Shown in pieces: positions 11,088 to 28,200 of a stretch of DNA of 64,000 nt; within the stretch, counting starts at the first letter, position 1, and each line of letters begins with the position of its first letter. The stretch is taken from contig BBXU01000139.1 in the NCBI GenBank assembly GCA_001598975.1, forward strand, positions 1 to 64,000, given 5' to 3'. A model generated the notes under the pieces. It was not told the DNA's origin and did not search any database. It worked only from the letters and a program-made list of their open reading frames with translations. A program made the translations under genes and the position numbers. This DNA comes from Parachlorella kessleri. Lineage: Eukaryota > Chlorophyta > Trebouxiophyceae > Chlorellales > Chlorellaceae.

Positions 11088-13565
11088 ATGTCAACTTCCC
11101 GAGCGGCGCTAGCTGTGCTACTCTTTGTGCTGACTTGGGTCTCTTCAGGTAGGCGTGGTACTCGGGCTAGCCTGCGCTCTGGTGCACCGCAAGTCAGTGA
11201 GGGGGAGGAGCTGTCAGGACAGGGGATGCGCTAGGCCGACTACCCCTAGACTTAGAGGTAATGTACAATTCCTTTGTGGTTCTGTTGCTTGCAGCTAGGG
11301 CGCTTAGCCAGCAGCCGGCTGACTGCAGTCAGGACAACGCCCTGCTGAGCCATGTGATCGGCTTGGAGGGCACAGCACTGTTTGCAGAGCTGCTGCTAAG
11401 CCTGGAAAACGGTGAGTACCTACTCTTACTCGTGCACATGCCAAGGCTCAGAGCCTAGCGTGTCCTCGGTCCTGCTCAGGAAGGTTTCTCGTCTTTGCAC
11501 CTTCCTGGTGGTAGGTGTAAAGGCGCTCACAGTTTTCAGTTTTCTGGTGCAGATACCTATGCCGGGGCCTCCAAGTGTAAGGCAACGCCCTGTCCCTTGA
11601 TCTACAGTCCTGTTTGCGGGGTGGACGGCACCACTTACGACAACGACTGCATAGCCAAGGAGTCTTGTGGGGTTGAGGTGGACTGTGCTGGCCAGTGCCC
11701 CTGTGCAGGCAAGTTCACGGGCAGAGAGGCGAGAGAACCATCGGTTTAGTGGTCGGTGGAAAACATCGAATGCAAGGTGGTTCGCTTCTGGTGCTGTGTG
11801 CCAGACTATTCACAGCTCTGGCCCAAACCCCGCGTGCCAAAGCGGAAGCCCTGCACCAACTGCTAATGGAGATGAGCTGATGCTTGTTGTGCAATGGCCG
11901 CAGGTCGTAAGCCTCCCACGACAGATGTGATCTGCCCCATGATTTACCAGCCATTTTGCGACGTGTACGGCCAGACCTACAGCAACCTGTGCATAGCCAA
12001 TGCTACCCATGCCATCCTGGCGTGTAGTGGCGCATGCCCCTGCCCCGGTAAGCTTCCTACTGCACTCTGTGAACCTTAGCTGCTTTCCTAGAGCGCTGAA
12101 CTCGCACACTTTTGCGATTCTGCCCTCCACAAATGTGTCTGCCGATTGCGGACAACAGTTTGCTGGCTCTCTTTGACCGGTCCCAACCTCTGTGTATGCC
12201 TGCTCTCTGTGAATCTGTCGGCCGGTATACATAATACTCTCCTTGCACCCTCCCCTTTTGGTGTTGCTGCTTGGTGGTGCTGGGAAAGTTAAGGTAGCTT
12301 AGTAGCCTAGTAAGTTATTGATCTCTTCTCCCAACACATCGCTGCAAGACCACGGCAGCGGCTGGTATGAGCTGACTGCTAAGTTGGTCAGACCACCAAG
12401 AGATGACCGATTTGCACATTTGTCTAATCCACCCCCGCGCTGTGTCCTTCATGGAACTGCAGACCCTCTGGTGAAGGTGAAAGAGAGTGCTGGCACCCTC
12501 CTCATCCCCACCGATGAGGTGCTGACTGTCCTGTTGGAGCGCGCCAACCTGACCTATGACAAGGTGGTGGGCAGCAAGGTGCAGGTGCAGTCACTGCTGG
12601 CACTACTCACCTCCCTCATGCCAACTTTGAACCTGAAGGTGAGATCAGCAGTGAGTGCCGTACTGCCGTTCCAGGTGTGAAGTGGCTGCAACCTGATTGT
12701 ATGTGCTCCTGCTGCAACCGTCGAGCAAGGTGCACCGGTTGAGGGCTCTGTGTCAATGTGGTAGAGGCAATGGCTGGGTGTGGGCAGCCAGTGCATCGTG
12801 CTCTTGCACATCTTGATTGGCGAAGGCGTCAGTTGCTGCTTAGGGTGCCAGCGAATCGGCGGATCTGAATACGTCATTGTGCAGTAACTGAGCGGGCACA
12901 TCTCGCACTGTGCTTGCCTTGGGCATGAACATCCACACGCTGGTGCTTCTGGATGCTCCCCTTTGGGACACACAAGAAAGCGCCATGACAACTGTGTGTG
13001 CTGGTGACCTGTGCAGCAAGACCACAGCATTGGGCTGAGTGAGGCCGGGCACCGGCTGCAGTATGAGGAGAAGGGCATGAGCGGCGAGCCTGCTATCCTC
13101 GACATGGACGCTGACGTGGAGCTGCACATAGCCAGCGTTGTCCCATATTGCGGGGTGAGTGCTTCCTGGTCTGCTTGCCACTAACTACATCCTGTCAAGG
13201 CTACACTGTAGGACAGGAGGTGCTAGCGCGCACCAGGGGGAGGCGGGCGGTAGTTGAAGGGTGTCAGAGCCCAAGGGGCATGGCACTGAAGCACTCCTCC
13301 CCAACGCCGCTAAGGCTCAGCAGATTTGCGATTTGTCATATGATCCCAGTTGTATAGTTGAACATTCCATGCCCGATGGATTGGCTGCCACTAGTGCCCC
13401 TACGCATGCTTGGGCAATGCTGGTTGTTCCTGACTGTTGCATGACCTGCAGGCCAACATTGTTGTGGTGGATGACCTGGTAGAGGTGCCGTCAGACTACG
13501 GGGACTATGCGGCATTCCACCAGCCACCCGGCCCACCGCTGCCTTCAGACGATGTGCCCGTGTGA
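11088..13565 (+). CDS. Secreted FAS1-domain protein with two nested Kazal domains
   Basis: Exons 11088-11148, 11295-11411, 11553-11708, 11904-12047, 12463-12638, 13017-13154 and 13452-13565 join to 301 residues. A signal peptide (AALAVLLFVLTWVSS) comes first. Residues 25-60 look like the opening helices of a FAS1 domain (LLSHVIGLEGTALFAELLLSLEN). Two Kazal modules follow, each in its own exon: CPLIYSPVCGVDGTTYDNDC and CPMIYQPFCDVYGQTYSNLC. The FAS1 domain then resumes with TLLIPTDEVLTVLL (the TVFAPT-like H1 box) and ends with ANIVVVDDLVEVP (the H2 box). FAS1 proteins act in extracellular matrix adhesion; Kazal modules often inhibit serine proteases. Intron 3 has a GC donor. The tail is Pro-rich without a clear GPI signal. 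Confidence 0.85.
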
Positions 13566-14733: not shown

Positions 14734-17070
14734 GGGCCGTTACTTGGTGGCTGATGAGGACCTTGAGAAAGGGAGGGTGGTACTCGTCTCGGAGGCTTAT
14801 CTATCAATGATACTGAGCAGCCATAAGAAGAGGGTGTGCAGCTTTTGCCACCAGGACGGCCGCGGGCGGCTGTCCTTGTGCTGCGGTGGGTGGCAGCTGT
14901 GTCACCTCTGTTCTTCTAGCAGGACTGGAGTCAGGTGTGCTCCAGGGCTACAATGATGAAATTGATGCCACTGATGGCCCCCCCTGCAGGAGGATGCCAC
15001 CAGGTCTGCTGGTGCTCTCCAGAATGCCGAGCAGCACATGCGGCAGCTGAGCCGCAGGCCACCCAGTATGGGTGCAGCATTGGCCTCGGTGCTGTTGCAC
15101 ATGGGAGCGAGAACCAGCCCCAGGAGGAGAGCTTGGCAGCATCAGGCGGAGGGGCAGGCTTAGTGGAGGCCAAGCCAGGCTCCATGCCAAACACGCCTGT
15201 CGGATGTGGGGGCAGCCTGGCAGAGCGCATGTGCCTGCTTGAGTTTGAAAGCAGAGGAGAAGCTTCCAGCAGCACCAGCAGGACAGGCGACAGAGGGAAT
15301 TACGGCAGTGGCAGCAAGCACAGCAACAGCGATGACGAGTGCGAGGGTGCACAGCAGGGCTGCACAGCCCCGGGATTCCGCGTAAGGGCTAATAGCAGCC
15401 CTGGGCGCTCGACCTCTGCAGCCCAGCTTCAGGACCCTTGGCAGAGGGCGCCCCTCAGCGCCACAGCCGTGCCTCATGGCTTGGTCTGTGGTGTGTTGCG
15501 GCAGTTTGGCAGCGTCAAATGGTCAGCTGATGTTGAGAGCGTGCTGCTGGGGGTGCTGCAGCTGCTGGCATTGGAGCATCTAGAGGACAAGCAGGCAGCA
15601 CAGCAGGACAGACCTGAAGAGGACGGCAGGCAGTTTTCTCTGCAGCACCCATGGTCACTTGCTGTACCATGGCACCGCGCAGCTGGAAGCTTTAGACAGG
15701 CAGAGCAGCCTTTGCAGGGCAGTAGTGAGGCAGCGCAGCAGGAGCTGCAGCAGACTGGCCCTCCAGGTGCAGTATGTCAGCCAAGCCAGGCCGCAGCCAG
15801 TAACCCAGAACTGCCTCACCTCACACATGCAGACTTTCTCATGCTGCAGAGCCATGCAGCTGACTGGGACGCGGCAGACCGGCGGGACTGGCTGAAGTAT
15901 GCAGCCCAGCTGATAACCATGCTGAAGAAGGCTGGGTGGCCGGGGCAGCTGCCCTCCCCCGAGGTTCTCCTCGAGTATGCCGGCCGCATCACCAGCAATA
16001 ACTTTGGCATCTATGCGCCTCCTGCCGCCTCGCAGGAACAGCAGGCGCAGCAGAGCACTGAGGAGGTGCTCGGACAGGGTACAGAGGCAGGAGAGCAGCT
16101 GGGCAACCAGGCAGGCTTTGTCGCTCGTCAATCAGGTCAAGCCTCAGCCCTGGTACAGCAGCCAGCAGCAGCCCAGCGTGGTGCAACTATAATAGCAGCT
16201 GCGGGGAAGAGCAGGCCTAGGCAGCAGGTGGAGGGCAAATCGGGACCAGGGCAGCAGCTGCGACAGAACCAGGAGCAGCAGTCAGCAAGCAAGCCAGGGC
16301 TTATAGGCCGCGAGCTCTACATCACTGCCAGCTTCTTCAACCACTCCTGCGAGCCCAATTGTGTTGTCCAGCGCGGCTTCAAGACTGCCACTGTTGCCAC
16401 TCAGCGTGCCATCAAGGTAAATCCCTATGCAATGACCTGGGGATGCAAATTACTACTTGTGTGAAAGAGGTGCCCTGGAGTCTTGCCAGTGGGGCTGGCC
16501 TTGTTGTGCAAGGGCAAGCATGCCTGGCTTGTACGCTGAACCCTTTGGTGCTTGTGACCCGTGCTAGACCTGCCCAGGGCATTGCATGAGCAAATCCCAG
16601 ACTGGGTCATGTGTCCTGGCAAATTGTGTTGGCAAAGCCTGGGACCAGCCAAGCAGTTTTGCATGGGCCTGCAGGCTGGGGAGGAGCTGACAATCTCCTA
16701 CATGGACATCGACCTGCCCCGCTCCGCCCGACGGAACCACCTCCAGAAGTTCTTCCACTTCAGCTGCGAGTGCTCCCGGTGAGAGGCCCTTGACGGCATG
16801 GAAGCTGTGGCACTTCTAGCAGGGCCTTGGGGCAGGGCTTGTCGGCACACACTGTGGCTTGTCATGACCTCACTTCTTAACCAATAATACCTTGGGCAAG
16901 GTAGTTGTGAGGAGATGCTGACACTGCAAGGTGAAGGCAACCTGCAGAATTTGGAGCGCAGGTGTGAGCGGGAGGCTTCAGAGGGGTCTGCACGGTGCAG
17001 CTATGAGTCAAGCAAGGTCAAGCCCAGTGCACCTAAGCGGCGGGGACGTAAGGCCAGAGTCAGCCGGTGA
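14734..17070 (+). CDS. MYND-SET protein (SMYD-like lysine methyltransferase), 5' exon missing
   Basis: Four exons are sure: 14734-14885, 14990-16416, 16675-16778 and 16905-17070, about 615 residues. A first exon with the ATG lies upstream and was not found. RYLVADEDLEKGRVVLVSEAY is the first part of the SET domain. The MYND zinc finger is split by intron 1: CSFC, then CCGGCHQVCWCSPECRAAH. The catalytic SET core is GRELYITASFFNHSCEPNC, then AGEELTISYMDIDLPRSARR and the post-SET cysteines CECSRC. This is the SMYD layout, a lysine methyltransferase of histone or non-histone substrates. Between MYND and the NHSC motif lie about 450 residues of Gln/Ala/Ser-rich sequence, far longer than usual; only two helical islands in it look folded. 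The C-terminus is basic (KRRGRKARVSR). Confidence 0.85.
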
Positions 17071-25200: not shown

Positions 25201-28200
25201 GGGACAGCTGGCCTGGCTGGGCCGCACACACCGCTTTGATAACCCTTGTAGTCATGGCCGAACCCTGCAGTCTGACCCATGGTGTCTGTTGGCCCATTCT
25301 GGCGGTCCATGCGCCCTTCAGGTGTAGTTGAAAAGTTCATGCTGTGCACTGCGTGATGAGGGGTGTCTGTCAACAGGCTGGCTATTGTGGTTCCGCAGGG
25401 CCCATCGTGTCCCCCATCGACGTGAGGGCTGCGGATGACAACCGCGACTCGCTCTCCAAAACCATCTACTCGCGCCTGTTTGACTGGCTGGTCAACAAGA
25501 TCAACACCTCCATTGGCCAGGACCCCCATGCCACCAGCCTCATTGGCGTGCTGGACATCTACGGTGGGTGACCCGTGGTCGTTTCGCACCGTGTTGTGCA
25601 GCCACCCAGAACGTGGTTCAGGGCTGTGGCTGGCCTCTCAGCACGTGGGCTTGTGTGCCCGTCACCGATTCCCTGTGTCATTCGGACCGTACTATAAAAG
25701 ACACATTCCATACTCCTGTTGGTGCAGGCTAGTTCCCGACCGACTGGCAGCTTCTGAGCTTGTTAATCCCTGGCCCCTGGCTCCCTGCAGGGTTTGAGCA
25801 GTTCAGAGAGAACGACTTTGAGCAGTTCTGCATCAACCTGGCCAACGAGAAGCTGCAGCAACACTTCAACCAGCACGTCTTCAAGATGGAGCAGGTGACC
25901 AGGGGCCAGCTTGTCTTGGCCTTGCCCCGGTTTGCATGCTGGCTGAAAAGCCTGTGCTGTGCAAACGGCGAGGTTGGCTTGCTGGAGTCTCCTTGAGTGT
26001 GGCGATTTGGCACGGAGACGCTGATGAGGCTCATGCAGCAGCTCAGGGGTCAGGGATTCCTCCTTGGGCTTGCTGCCTGAAGCTGCGAGGGTCCGGTAGC
26101 CCACCACTAGAATCTGATCCGCTCGTCCCTTGCCCTACAGGCTGAGTACGAGCGAGAGGAGATTGAGTGGAGCTACATTGAGTTTGTGGACAACCAGGAT
26201 GTGCTGGACCTGATTGAGGCTCCCATGGGCATCCTTGACTTGCTGGACGAGACCTGCAGGTTCCCCAAGGCGAGTCAGTGGGGCTAGGGGGCGGGGGCGG
26301 CGGCTCTGTGGCTTGCTGGCAGGAGGCAGAGCCTGCAACTGCGAGCCGGCTGGGTGGGCGCGAAAGCGGCACATGTGGCCTGACAGGTGTTGTGTGTGGG
26401 CCTGTCACCGTCAACTGCCAGGCCTCAGGCCAGGCATGTGGCTGGGCACGGATTATCGTCAAGACCGGGGTGGGATTGAAGGAGGTGTGGGCTTCTGGGT
26501 GGTGGTGAGTGCAGGCCACATATGAGGACCTGGCCCAGAAGCTGTACAGCGCTCCCACCGTCAAAGACTCCAGCCGCTTCTCCAAGCCCAAGCTGTCGCG
26601 CACAGACTTCACCATCGAGCACTACGCTGGTGGGGTGCCCCCTCCAGGCCTGCACTTGCAAAACCCACACCCCGCTTTGGAAGTCCTTCATCCTCAGAAA
26701 GTCCTTGCTCCTTCATTAACCTGCTGCACAGCTGAATTTTCCTTGGGCCACCTGTGTTCCCGCCCTTGCCTCCAACAGCCTCTTCCCGCCTTCCTGCCTG
26801 CAGGCGGCGTGACCTACAAGACCAACAACTTCCTGGACAAGAACCGCGACTTTGTGGTGGCGGAGCACCAGGCGCTGCTGGGGGCCTCCGTGCACGACTT
26901 TGTGCGGCTGCTGTTCCCGGCCGAGCCGCAGGCGGCCGGCGGGCCGGGCGGCGGCCGCGCCATGCAAAGCAGCTACAAGTTCAGCAGCGTGGGCAGCCGC
27001 TTCAAGAAGCAGGTGCGGTGCGGTGCTGGCTGCCATGCCGGGTCCCAGACCTGGGGCTGGTGGGATGCGTTGCTCGTAATGTGTCACTGTGGTGACCGCT
27101 GCTGCTGCTCCTGCTGCGCTGGCCGTGGCTGGGCTGCTGCTATTAGTCCTCGGCACCATAATGCAGCACCAAAGTGAGGCTGGTAGGAGACAGCAGGGCT
27201 TGGGAGTTTACACTGCATCCTGTGTGCCCCACTGCAGCTGGCGGAGCTGATGGAGGCTCTGCGGCGCATGGAGCCTCACTACATCCGCTGCATCAAGCCC
27301 AACTCCTACAACCGCCCCATGGACTTCGAGAACCTCAACGTGCTGCTTCAGGTCTGCATGGGGTGCTGCCTTGTCGTGCGTAGCGGCCATCGGCGGGCCA
27401 GGCAGCGGCATGATCATGCAAGGCGGAAGGTGTATATAGCCGGCATGTCCTGTGTTAGTATCAACGGCGACGGGTGAGGTCCTTTCTAGGCCTACTGTCC
27501 CCGCATGGTGCATTTTGCAAAATTTGAAGATGCACAGGCACCCACCTCACCGCTCTGTACGTGCACCGTCCCACGTGGCTGCAGCTGCGCTGCGGCGGCG
27601 TGCTGGAGGCGGTGCGCATCAGCTGCGCGGGCTACCCCACCAAGATCCCCTACGAGGACTTTGTGGACCACTTCTGGAACCTGGCCACCGACATGCTGCA
27701 GCTGGACGACATCGGCCTGACCAAGGGCGTGCTGCAGCGGGTGCTGGGCGTGGAGGGGTACCAGCTGGGCAAGAGCAAGGTGGGTGGGGGGCTGCGGGGG
27801 GCGGGGGCAGGCATCTGGGGTTGGTGGTGTGTGGGTTGCTGTGTTGGGTGTGTGTGGGGGGGGGGGGATCTGAGCGGTTGCCAAGCAGACACAGGAAGGC
27901 AGGGTTTGGGGCGGGGGGGGGTCTTGTGTTGAAAAGCTAGCCTGTCTGCCTGGCAAGTGAGCTGGGTAGAGCTGCTCTGCACAGCCTGACTGTGGAGGTT
28001 GGAAGTGCTTGATAGGTTTGCTGTGGCCGAGGGTCGCCGCATCCATTTTTGAGGTAGCAGTCCCTTCCCCACAACCCCTTCACAGGTGTTCCTGCGGGCG
28101 GGCAAGATGGCTGAGCTGGACAAGCGGCGGACAGATGTGATGAACTACTCAGCACGAGTTGTCCAGCGGCACGTGCGCGGCTACCTGGCGCGGCTGCATT

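Follow-up and report, generated by a model that had tools for sequence, protein, structure and literature searches.

Kazal modules between a helical exon and a remotely FAS1-like half in a gene family from the green alga Parachlorella kessleri

Results and Discussion

The window analyzed here is a stretch of 64,000 nucleotides from the green alga Parachlorella kessleri (contig BBXU01000139.1 of assembly GCA_001598975.1, positions 1 to 64,000), and its forward strand carries, at positions 11088-13565, a seven-exon gene whose product brings known parts together in a new domain arrangement that is common to a small algal family. The predicted proteins of this conserved family share one layout, in which a tandem of Kazal domains (two, two, and four copies in the window protein, its paralogue, and the database protein P0001, respectively) lies between a helical segment and a C-terminal half. 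On balance, the window gene is somewhat likely to encode a secreted, multi-headed serine-protease inhibitor scaffolded by a FAS1-like domain, with the Kazal modules nested after the first helices of that domain.

Gene structure and family members

The seven exons of the window gene splice into one open frame of 301 codons and a stop codon, and the intervening introns are, in order, of phases 1, 1, 1, 1, 0 and 0. Exon 1 (11088-11148, + strand, as are all features described here) provides the start codon and a hydrophobic leader that was judged by eye to resemble a signal peptide, and it ends in phase 1. Exon 2 (11295-11411) encodes a helical segment that may supply the first helices of the FAS1-like domain and that resembles the N-terminus of P0001. 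The two Kazal domains, both detected by Pfam, occupy one exon each (exon 3, 11553-11708, and exon 4, 11904-12047), and the C-terminal half is divided among the last three exons: exon 5 (12463-12638) encodes its first part, with GTLLIPTDEV at 12492-12521; exon 6 (13017-13154) carries the family signature SEAGHRLQY..GEPAILD and is strand-rich in models of P0001; and exon 7 (13452-13565) contains the last strand, IVVVDDLVEV (13458-13487), a tail, and the stop codon. An earlier interpretation of this DNA, the sequence-only reading, had placed each Kazal domain alone on a class 1-1 exon, and this is confirmed for exons 3 and 4 (156 and 144 nucleotides) in both the window gene and the paralogue. Exon 2 (117 nucleotides), which had escaped comment in that reading, is likewise class 1-1.

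The window gene is real as read from the DNA. Its model is trusted because its exons and phases recur in a paralogue from the same genome, because P0001 has its parts in the same order, because the GC contents at the three codon positions of its coding sequence are 0.63, 0.45 and 0.70, and because each of its six introns carries an in-frame stop if retained. All of the introns are of the GT...AG type except intron 3, which has a GC donor (GCAAGT) after exon 3. This single GC donor speaks for the alternative that unrelated adjoining exons have been strung together by chance or through a mis-assembled model, an explanation that is nevertheless barely credible: the paralogue, on contig C328, keeps all seven exons and their phases; P0001, one protein known from its database record only, keeps the order; and the protein fragments P0010, P0011 and P0013 match exons 5 or 6 at 77-88% identity. 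A chance string of exons is ruled out in essence by the C328 paralogue and P0001.

The paralogue encodes 302 residues, and its first exon is again 61 nucleotides long and ends in phase 1. P0001, which was retrieved by a protein-database search, has 377 residues and comes from a contig of 1711 bases; it begins with a helix like that of exon 2, continues with four Kazal domains, and ends in a C-terminal half like that of the window protein. The order of helix, Kazal domains, and TLLIPTDEV-containing half that had been read from the window gene thus recurs in all three proteins. When window exon 2 was aligned with the N-terminus of P0001, the local score was 42, and none of 2000 shuffles scored as high. 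Exon 2 of the paralogue is much weaker, in that 115 of 2000 shuffles scored as high against P0001 and 441 of 2000 against the window exon. For the fragments, the individual identities are 84% and 77% for P0011 and P0013 with window exon 5, 88% for P0010 with window exon 6, and 96% and 77% for P0012 and P0014 with exon 5 of the paralogue. Searching the genome at the protein level returned two family members, the window gene and the C328 paralogue, both of which contain Kazal domains; no clear Kazal-free relative was found in protein searches, and beyond loci consisting of Kazal domains only, there was one weak genome match, on contig C689 (E 0.05), with five internal stops. The named source of the family so far is P. 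kessleri.

The paralogue is already present in NCBI as a P. kessleri hypothetical protein, N2152v2_010181 (P0009), which is letter-identical to our translation from exon 3 to the end. This model omits exon 2 and has no function assigned. The omission may be an annotation artefact or a genuine splice form; the 2016 P. kessleri draft is stated to have had its genes predicted with GeneMark-ES (PMC4724957). Because the lengths of exons 2, 3 and 4 are divisible by three and each of these exons is class 1-1, any one of them could be skipped in frame. It is conceivable, if improbable, that the gene encodes an inhibitor that lies within an adhesion fold and can be switched by splicing, with plain FAS1-like, one- or two-headed, or helix-less forms, the last of these being the form given by the public annotation of the paralogue. 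In the paralogue, the intron after exon 5 (about positions 4390-4140 of locus L032) contains what appears by eye to be a direct repeat, in which the 3' end of exon 5 and its splice donor are duplicated.

Kazal domains

By sequence, the window domains belong to the Kazal family. Pfam Kazal_1 matches the window protein in two stretches (E 5.9e-12; 45.8 bits, against a cut-off of 21), the paralogue with E 2e-11, and P0001 in four stretches (E 2.6e-20). Both window domains have the Cys-x7-Cys-x10-Cys core, and extra C-terminal cysteines (CPC) make them non-classical. The Kazal fold is present in the modeled structure of the homologue P0001: in the second of two models, the Kazal blocks mostly have predicted local distance difference test scores (pLDDT) of 70-91. 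Furthermore, among solved Kazal inhibitors, the leech-derived tryptase inhibitor (1ldt_L) matches the Kazal portions of the P0001 model with a probability of 1.00 and E 0.022, the superposition having a root-mean-square deviation (rmsd) of 0.8 Å over 38 columns at 50% identity, and 1an1_I and 4hgu also match with a probability of 1.00 (E 0.02).

The P1 residue was assigned as the residue two after a cysteine, following the horseshoe crab inhibitor CrSPI-1, for which P1 is described in this position, with proline at P2 (PMC3082530). The putative P1 residues of the window protein are Leu75 in the first Kazal domain (codon 11597-11599) and Met124 in the second (codon 11939-11941); those of P0001 are Arg, Asp, Leu and Met, and those of the paralogue Asp and Lys. 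As these residues differ among the copies, the pattern is that of multi-headed inhibitors.

Kinship of the C-terminal half

The C-terminal half is, with moderate confidence, FAS1-like by remote kinship, a grading that was chosen because its profile-profile score exceeds those of shuffles and of non-FAS1 open reading frames while Pfam gives no match. In the hhalign comparison of eight family sequences with FAS1, the probability was 69.7%, P was 4.2e-5, and the score was 33.8, which none of 100 column shuffles reached (maximum score 19.2, highest probability 2.8%). The C-terminal half alone gave a probability of 70.0%. Single members of the family scored 19.0, 21.1 and 22.2, with probabilities of 2.7, 5.9 and 8.1%, and all three lie above a control set of 128 non-FAS1 open reading frames, which scored at most 18.6; this set was retained from 314 after exclusion of those shorter than 120 residues or matching FAS1.

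The FAS1 profiles were built from the best 80 of 425 loci. For the first, shorter profile, which comprised 142 prokaryotic domains, aligned pieces of fewer than 100 residues were excluded; for the fuller profile, of 134 domains, matches that covered little of the profile or that lacked a C-terminal motif were excluded. With the first profile, the Kazal-excised window protein, P0001, and paralogue scored 4.0, 7.6 and 9.6 bits, and 1, 0 and 0 of 500 shuffles scored as high. With the fuller profile, the respective scores were 5.4, 7.5 and 10.2 bits (1, 0 and 1 of 500 shuffles as high), and the hhalign probability was 70.2%. The remoteness of the relationship is evident from two FAS1 proteins of the same genome, encoded on contig C980, which scored 84.0 and 82.7 bits with the fuller profile, unlike the family members at 5.4-10.2 bits.

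Two results weigh against FAS1 kinship. The hhalign probability was 25.6% with the first, shorter profile, and the Pfam FAS1 family (PF02469, cut-off 22 bits) did not match the window protein, the paralogue, or P0001, whole or with the Kazal domains excised, at a maximum E of 10, a setting at which the HMMER filters still discard most matches above an E of about 0.1. The window C-terminal half alone also had no Pfam FAS1 match at that maximum E. The outright label of FAS1 protein was rejected, and the gene is not filed under it, because all three members lack a Pfam match.

Proposed function and alternative explanations

In the mechanism that we propose, the leader would direct the family protein outside the cell, and the tandem of non-classical Kazal modules would occupy a loop that follows the opening helices of a strongly diverged FAS1-like domain, with the leading helices packed onto the C-terminal half. 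Each Kazal module would mimic a substrate with a loop whose P1 residue (Leu75 or Met124) lies two positions past a cysteine, and would thereby block an extracellular serine protease, probably one of the subtilisin, elastase, or chymotrypsin type, while the FAS1-like body would anchor the modules outside the cell.

In follistatin and agrin, Kazal modules have a structural or binding role, and those of the window protein may likewise be structural spacers or binding modules that inhibit no protease. This is rather unlikely, even though Asp occupies P1 in two of the eight modules and the best Foldseek rows for the P0001 model, six with E ≤ 0.001, are all follistatin chains (best E 2.5e-05). The follistatin alignments are poor, with template-modeling (TM) scores of 0.10-0.14 and an rmsd of about 17 Å, and they probably mirror tandem repetition for that reason, whereas single modules fit the true inhibitors 1ldt_L, 1an1_I and 4hgu closely, albeit at a weaker E of 0.02. 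Six of the eight modules, moreover, have Leu, Met, Arg or Lys at P1, and an acidic P1 is itself compatible with inhibition, as the CrSPI-1 study reports that Glu at P1 inhibits subtilisin (PMC3082530).

The sequence-only reading had described a FAS1 domain split by the Kazal modules. For the C-terminal half this holds in the weaker sense of a remote kinship, and that the leading helices complete the same domain is weakly supported. In the joint comparison of the helix half and the C-terminal half with FAS1, 4 of 100 helix shuffles reached the joint hhalign score. When the two were aligned separately, the helix half fell on FAS1 positions 15-26 and the C-terminal half on positions 40-111, which is the order expected for one domain, although the score of the helix half alone was insignificant (P 0.2). 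Several further results weigh against nesting. The HMMER scores were reached by 51, 5 and 48 of 200 helix shuffles for the window protein, P0001, and the paralogue; exon 2 did not directly resemble the opening helices of a FAS1 protein encoded on C980 in this genome; and no confident packing of the helix against the C-terminal half was seen in the two P0001 models, in which the homologue rather than the window protein was folded and the predicted TM scores were low (0.27 and 0.24). In these models, the N-terminus of P0001 is helical both times, with low confidence, and the C-terminal half is confident in the first model only at residues 301-330. It is thus quite possible, if less probable, that the protein consists of a leader, a separate helical linker, two Kazal domains, and then either an N-terminally truncated FAS1-like domain or one unrelated to FAS1, with nothing nested. 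Such a layout would agree with the small contribution of the helix half to the FAS1 score, with the NCBI model of the paralogue, which skips exon 2 and retains the rest, and with the class 1-1 nature of exon 2 itself, which may mark a separate module. Conversely, the conservation of exon 2 with P0001 (0 of 2000 shuffles), the collinear placement of the two halves on FAS1, and the match between the predicted succession of helices and strands and that of FAS1 domains argue for a single domain with the Kazal modules nested in it.

Intron phase and the origin of the arrangement

The best-known cases of class 1-1 assembly come from animals, and the symmetric Kazal exons had suggested exon shuffling into a FAS1 intron. 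As stated, this claim was not supported, for the FAS1 genes of this genome that have an intron at the site carry phase 0. These genes, which served as stand-ins for the recipient gene, often have an intron just before AAGL, within a few codons of the Kazal position. A phase-0 intron was read there in the DNA of one C980 FAS1 gene, and two other C980 copies are consistent with it. Eight further FAS1 loci were considered: those on C725, C312 and C824 are consistent with a phase-0 intron, C380 lacks an intron at this place, C102 and C1415 are ambiguous, and C624 and C1293 do not reach the AAGL site. Among the FAS1 loci examined in this genome, no phase-1 intron was seen at the insertion point. 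Since a class 1-1 exon placed in a phase-0 intron breaks the frame, simple insertion does not fit, and straight shuffling into a FAS1 intron of this genome was rejected on this phase mismatch. The alternatives are a recipient gene that had a phase-1 intron and assembly of the gene by another route.

Six other Kazal stretches, on five contigs, were examined with the splice sites placed by eye: four of them read as class 1-1 exons, another belongs to a terminal exon, and the sixth is ambiguous. The Kazal exons on C1478 (L035) and C1494 (L037) were read as class 1-1 exons behind leader-like exons, with the C1478 pair facing in opposite directions. Contig C980 (L038, L039) contains three FAS1 genes that resemble one another within a span of about 25 kb, and the sequence of each is consistent with an intron just before AAGL; no match on this contig was listed in the search for the Kazal family.

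If the modules are indeed nested, the family would show that a FAS1-like domain can accept differing numbers of inhibitor modules in a single loop, and it would stand as a clear example, in a unicellular green alga, of assembly from class 1-1 modules. The copy numbers of two, two and four, together with the differing P1 residues, offer a natural series on how multi-headed inhibitors are built and retargeted.

Comparison with known proteins

The leech-derived tryptase inhibitor and rhodniin are proteins made of Kazal modules only. The same is reported of CrSPI-1 (PMC3082530). The window protein resembles these three non-classical inhibitors in its Cys-x7-Cys-x10-Cys core and CP[P1] loop, in its Kazal fold, as judged from the P0001 model, and in having several heads with different P1 residues. 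Unlike them, it has a helical exon before its Kazal domains and a FAS1-like half after them, and the Kazal domains bear the extra C-terminal cysteines (CPC). The multi-Kazal proteins P0002 and P0003 share the Kazal subtype that ends in CxGxCPC, at 53% and 49% identity over 31% of the query. In contrast to the window protein, their best alignments are limited to the Kazal domains, and no FAS1-like half was seen in them; both also carry PF00014, which we take to be the Kunitz domain. With green-algal FAS1 proteins, namely the astaxanthin-binding AstaP proteins 8c18, 22iy and 9wm8 and the products of the C980 genes, the likeness is a remote profile similarity of the C-terminal half.

In the open-licence literature, judged in part by titles and the beginnings of abstracts, no protein combining Kazal and fasciclin (FAS1) domains was found, and a search for Kazal together with Chlorella, judged by titles and the beginnings of abstracts, likewise yielded no such protein. 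In the part of the main text available from a survey of Scenedesmus fasciclin proteins, the word Kazal is absent (PMC7590803).

Neighboring regions of the window

Downstream of the gene, reading frames at 14837-16464 contain a cysteine-rich stretch that looks finger-like and, after it, the sequence NHSCEPNC, which we take to be SET-domain-like. One further reading frame, at 26509-27177, presumably encodes a myosin-motor-like segment.
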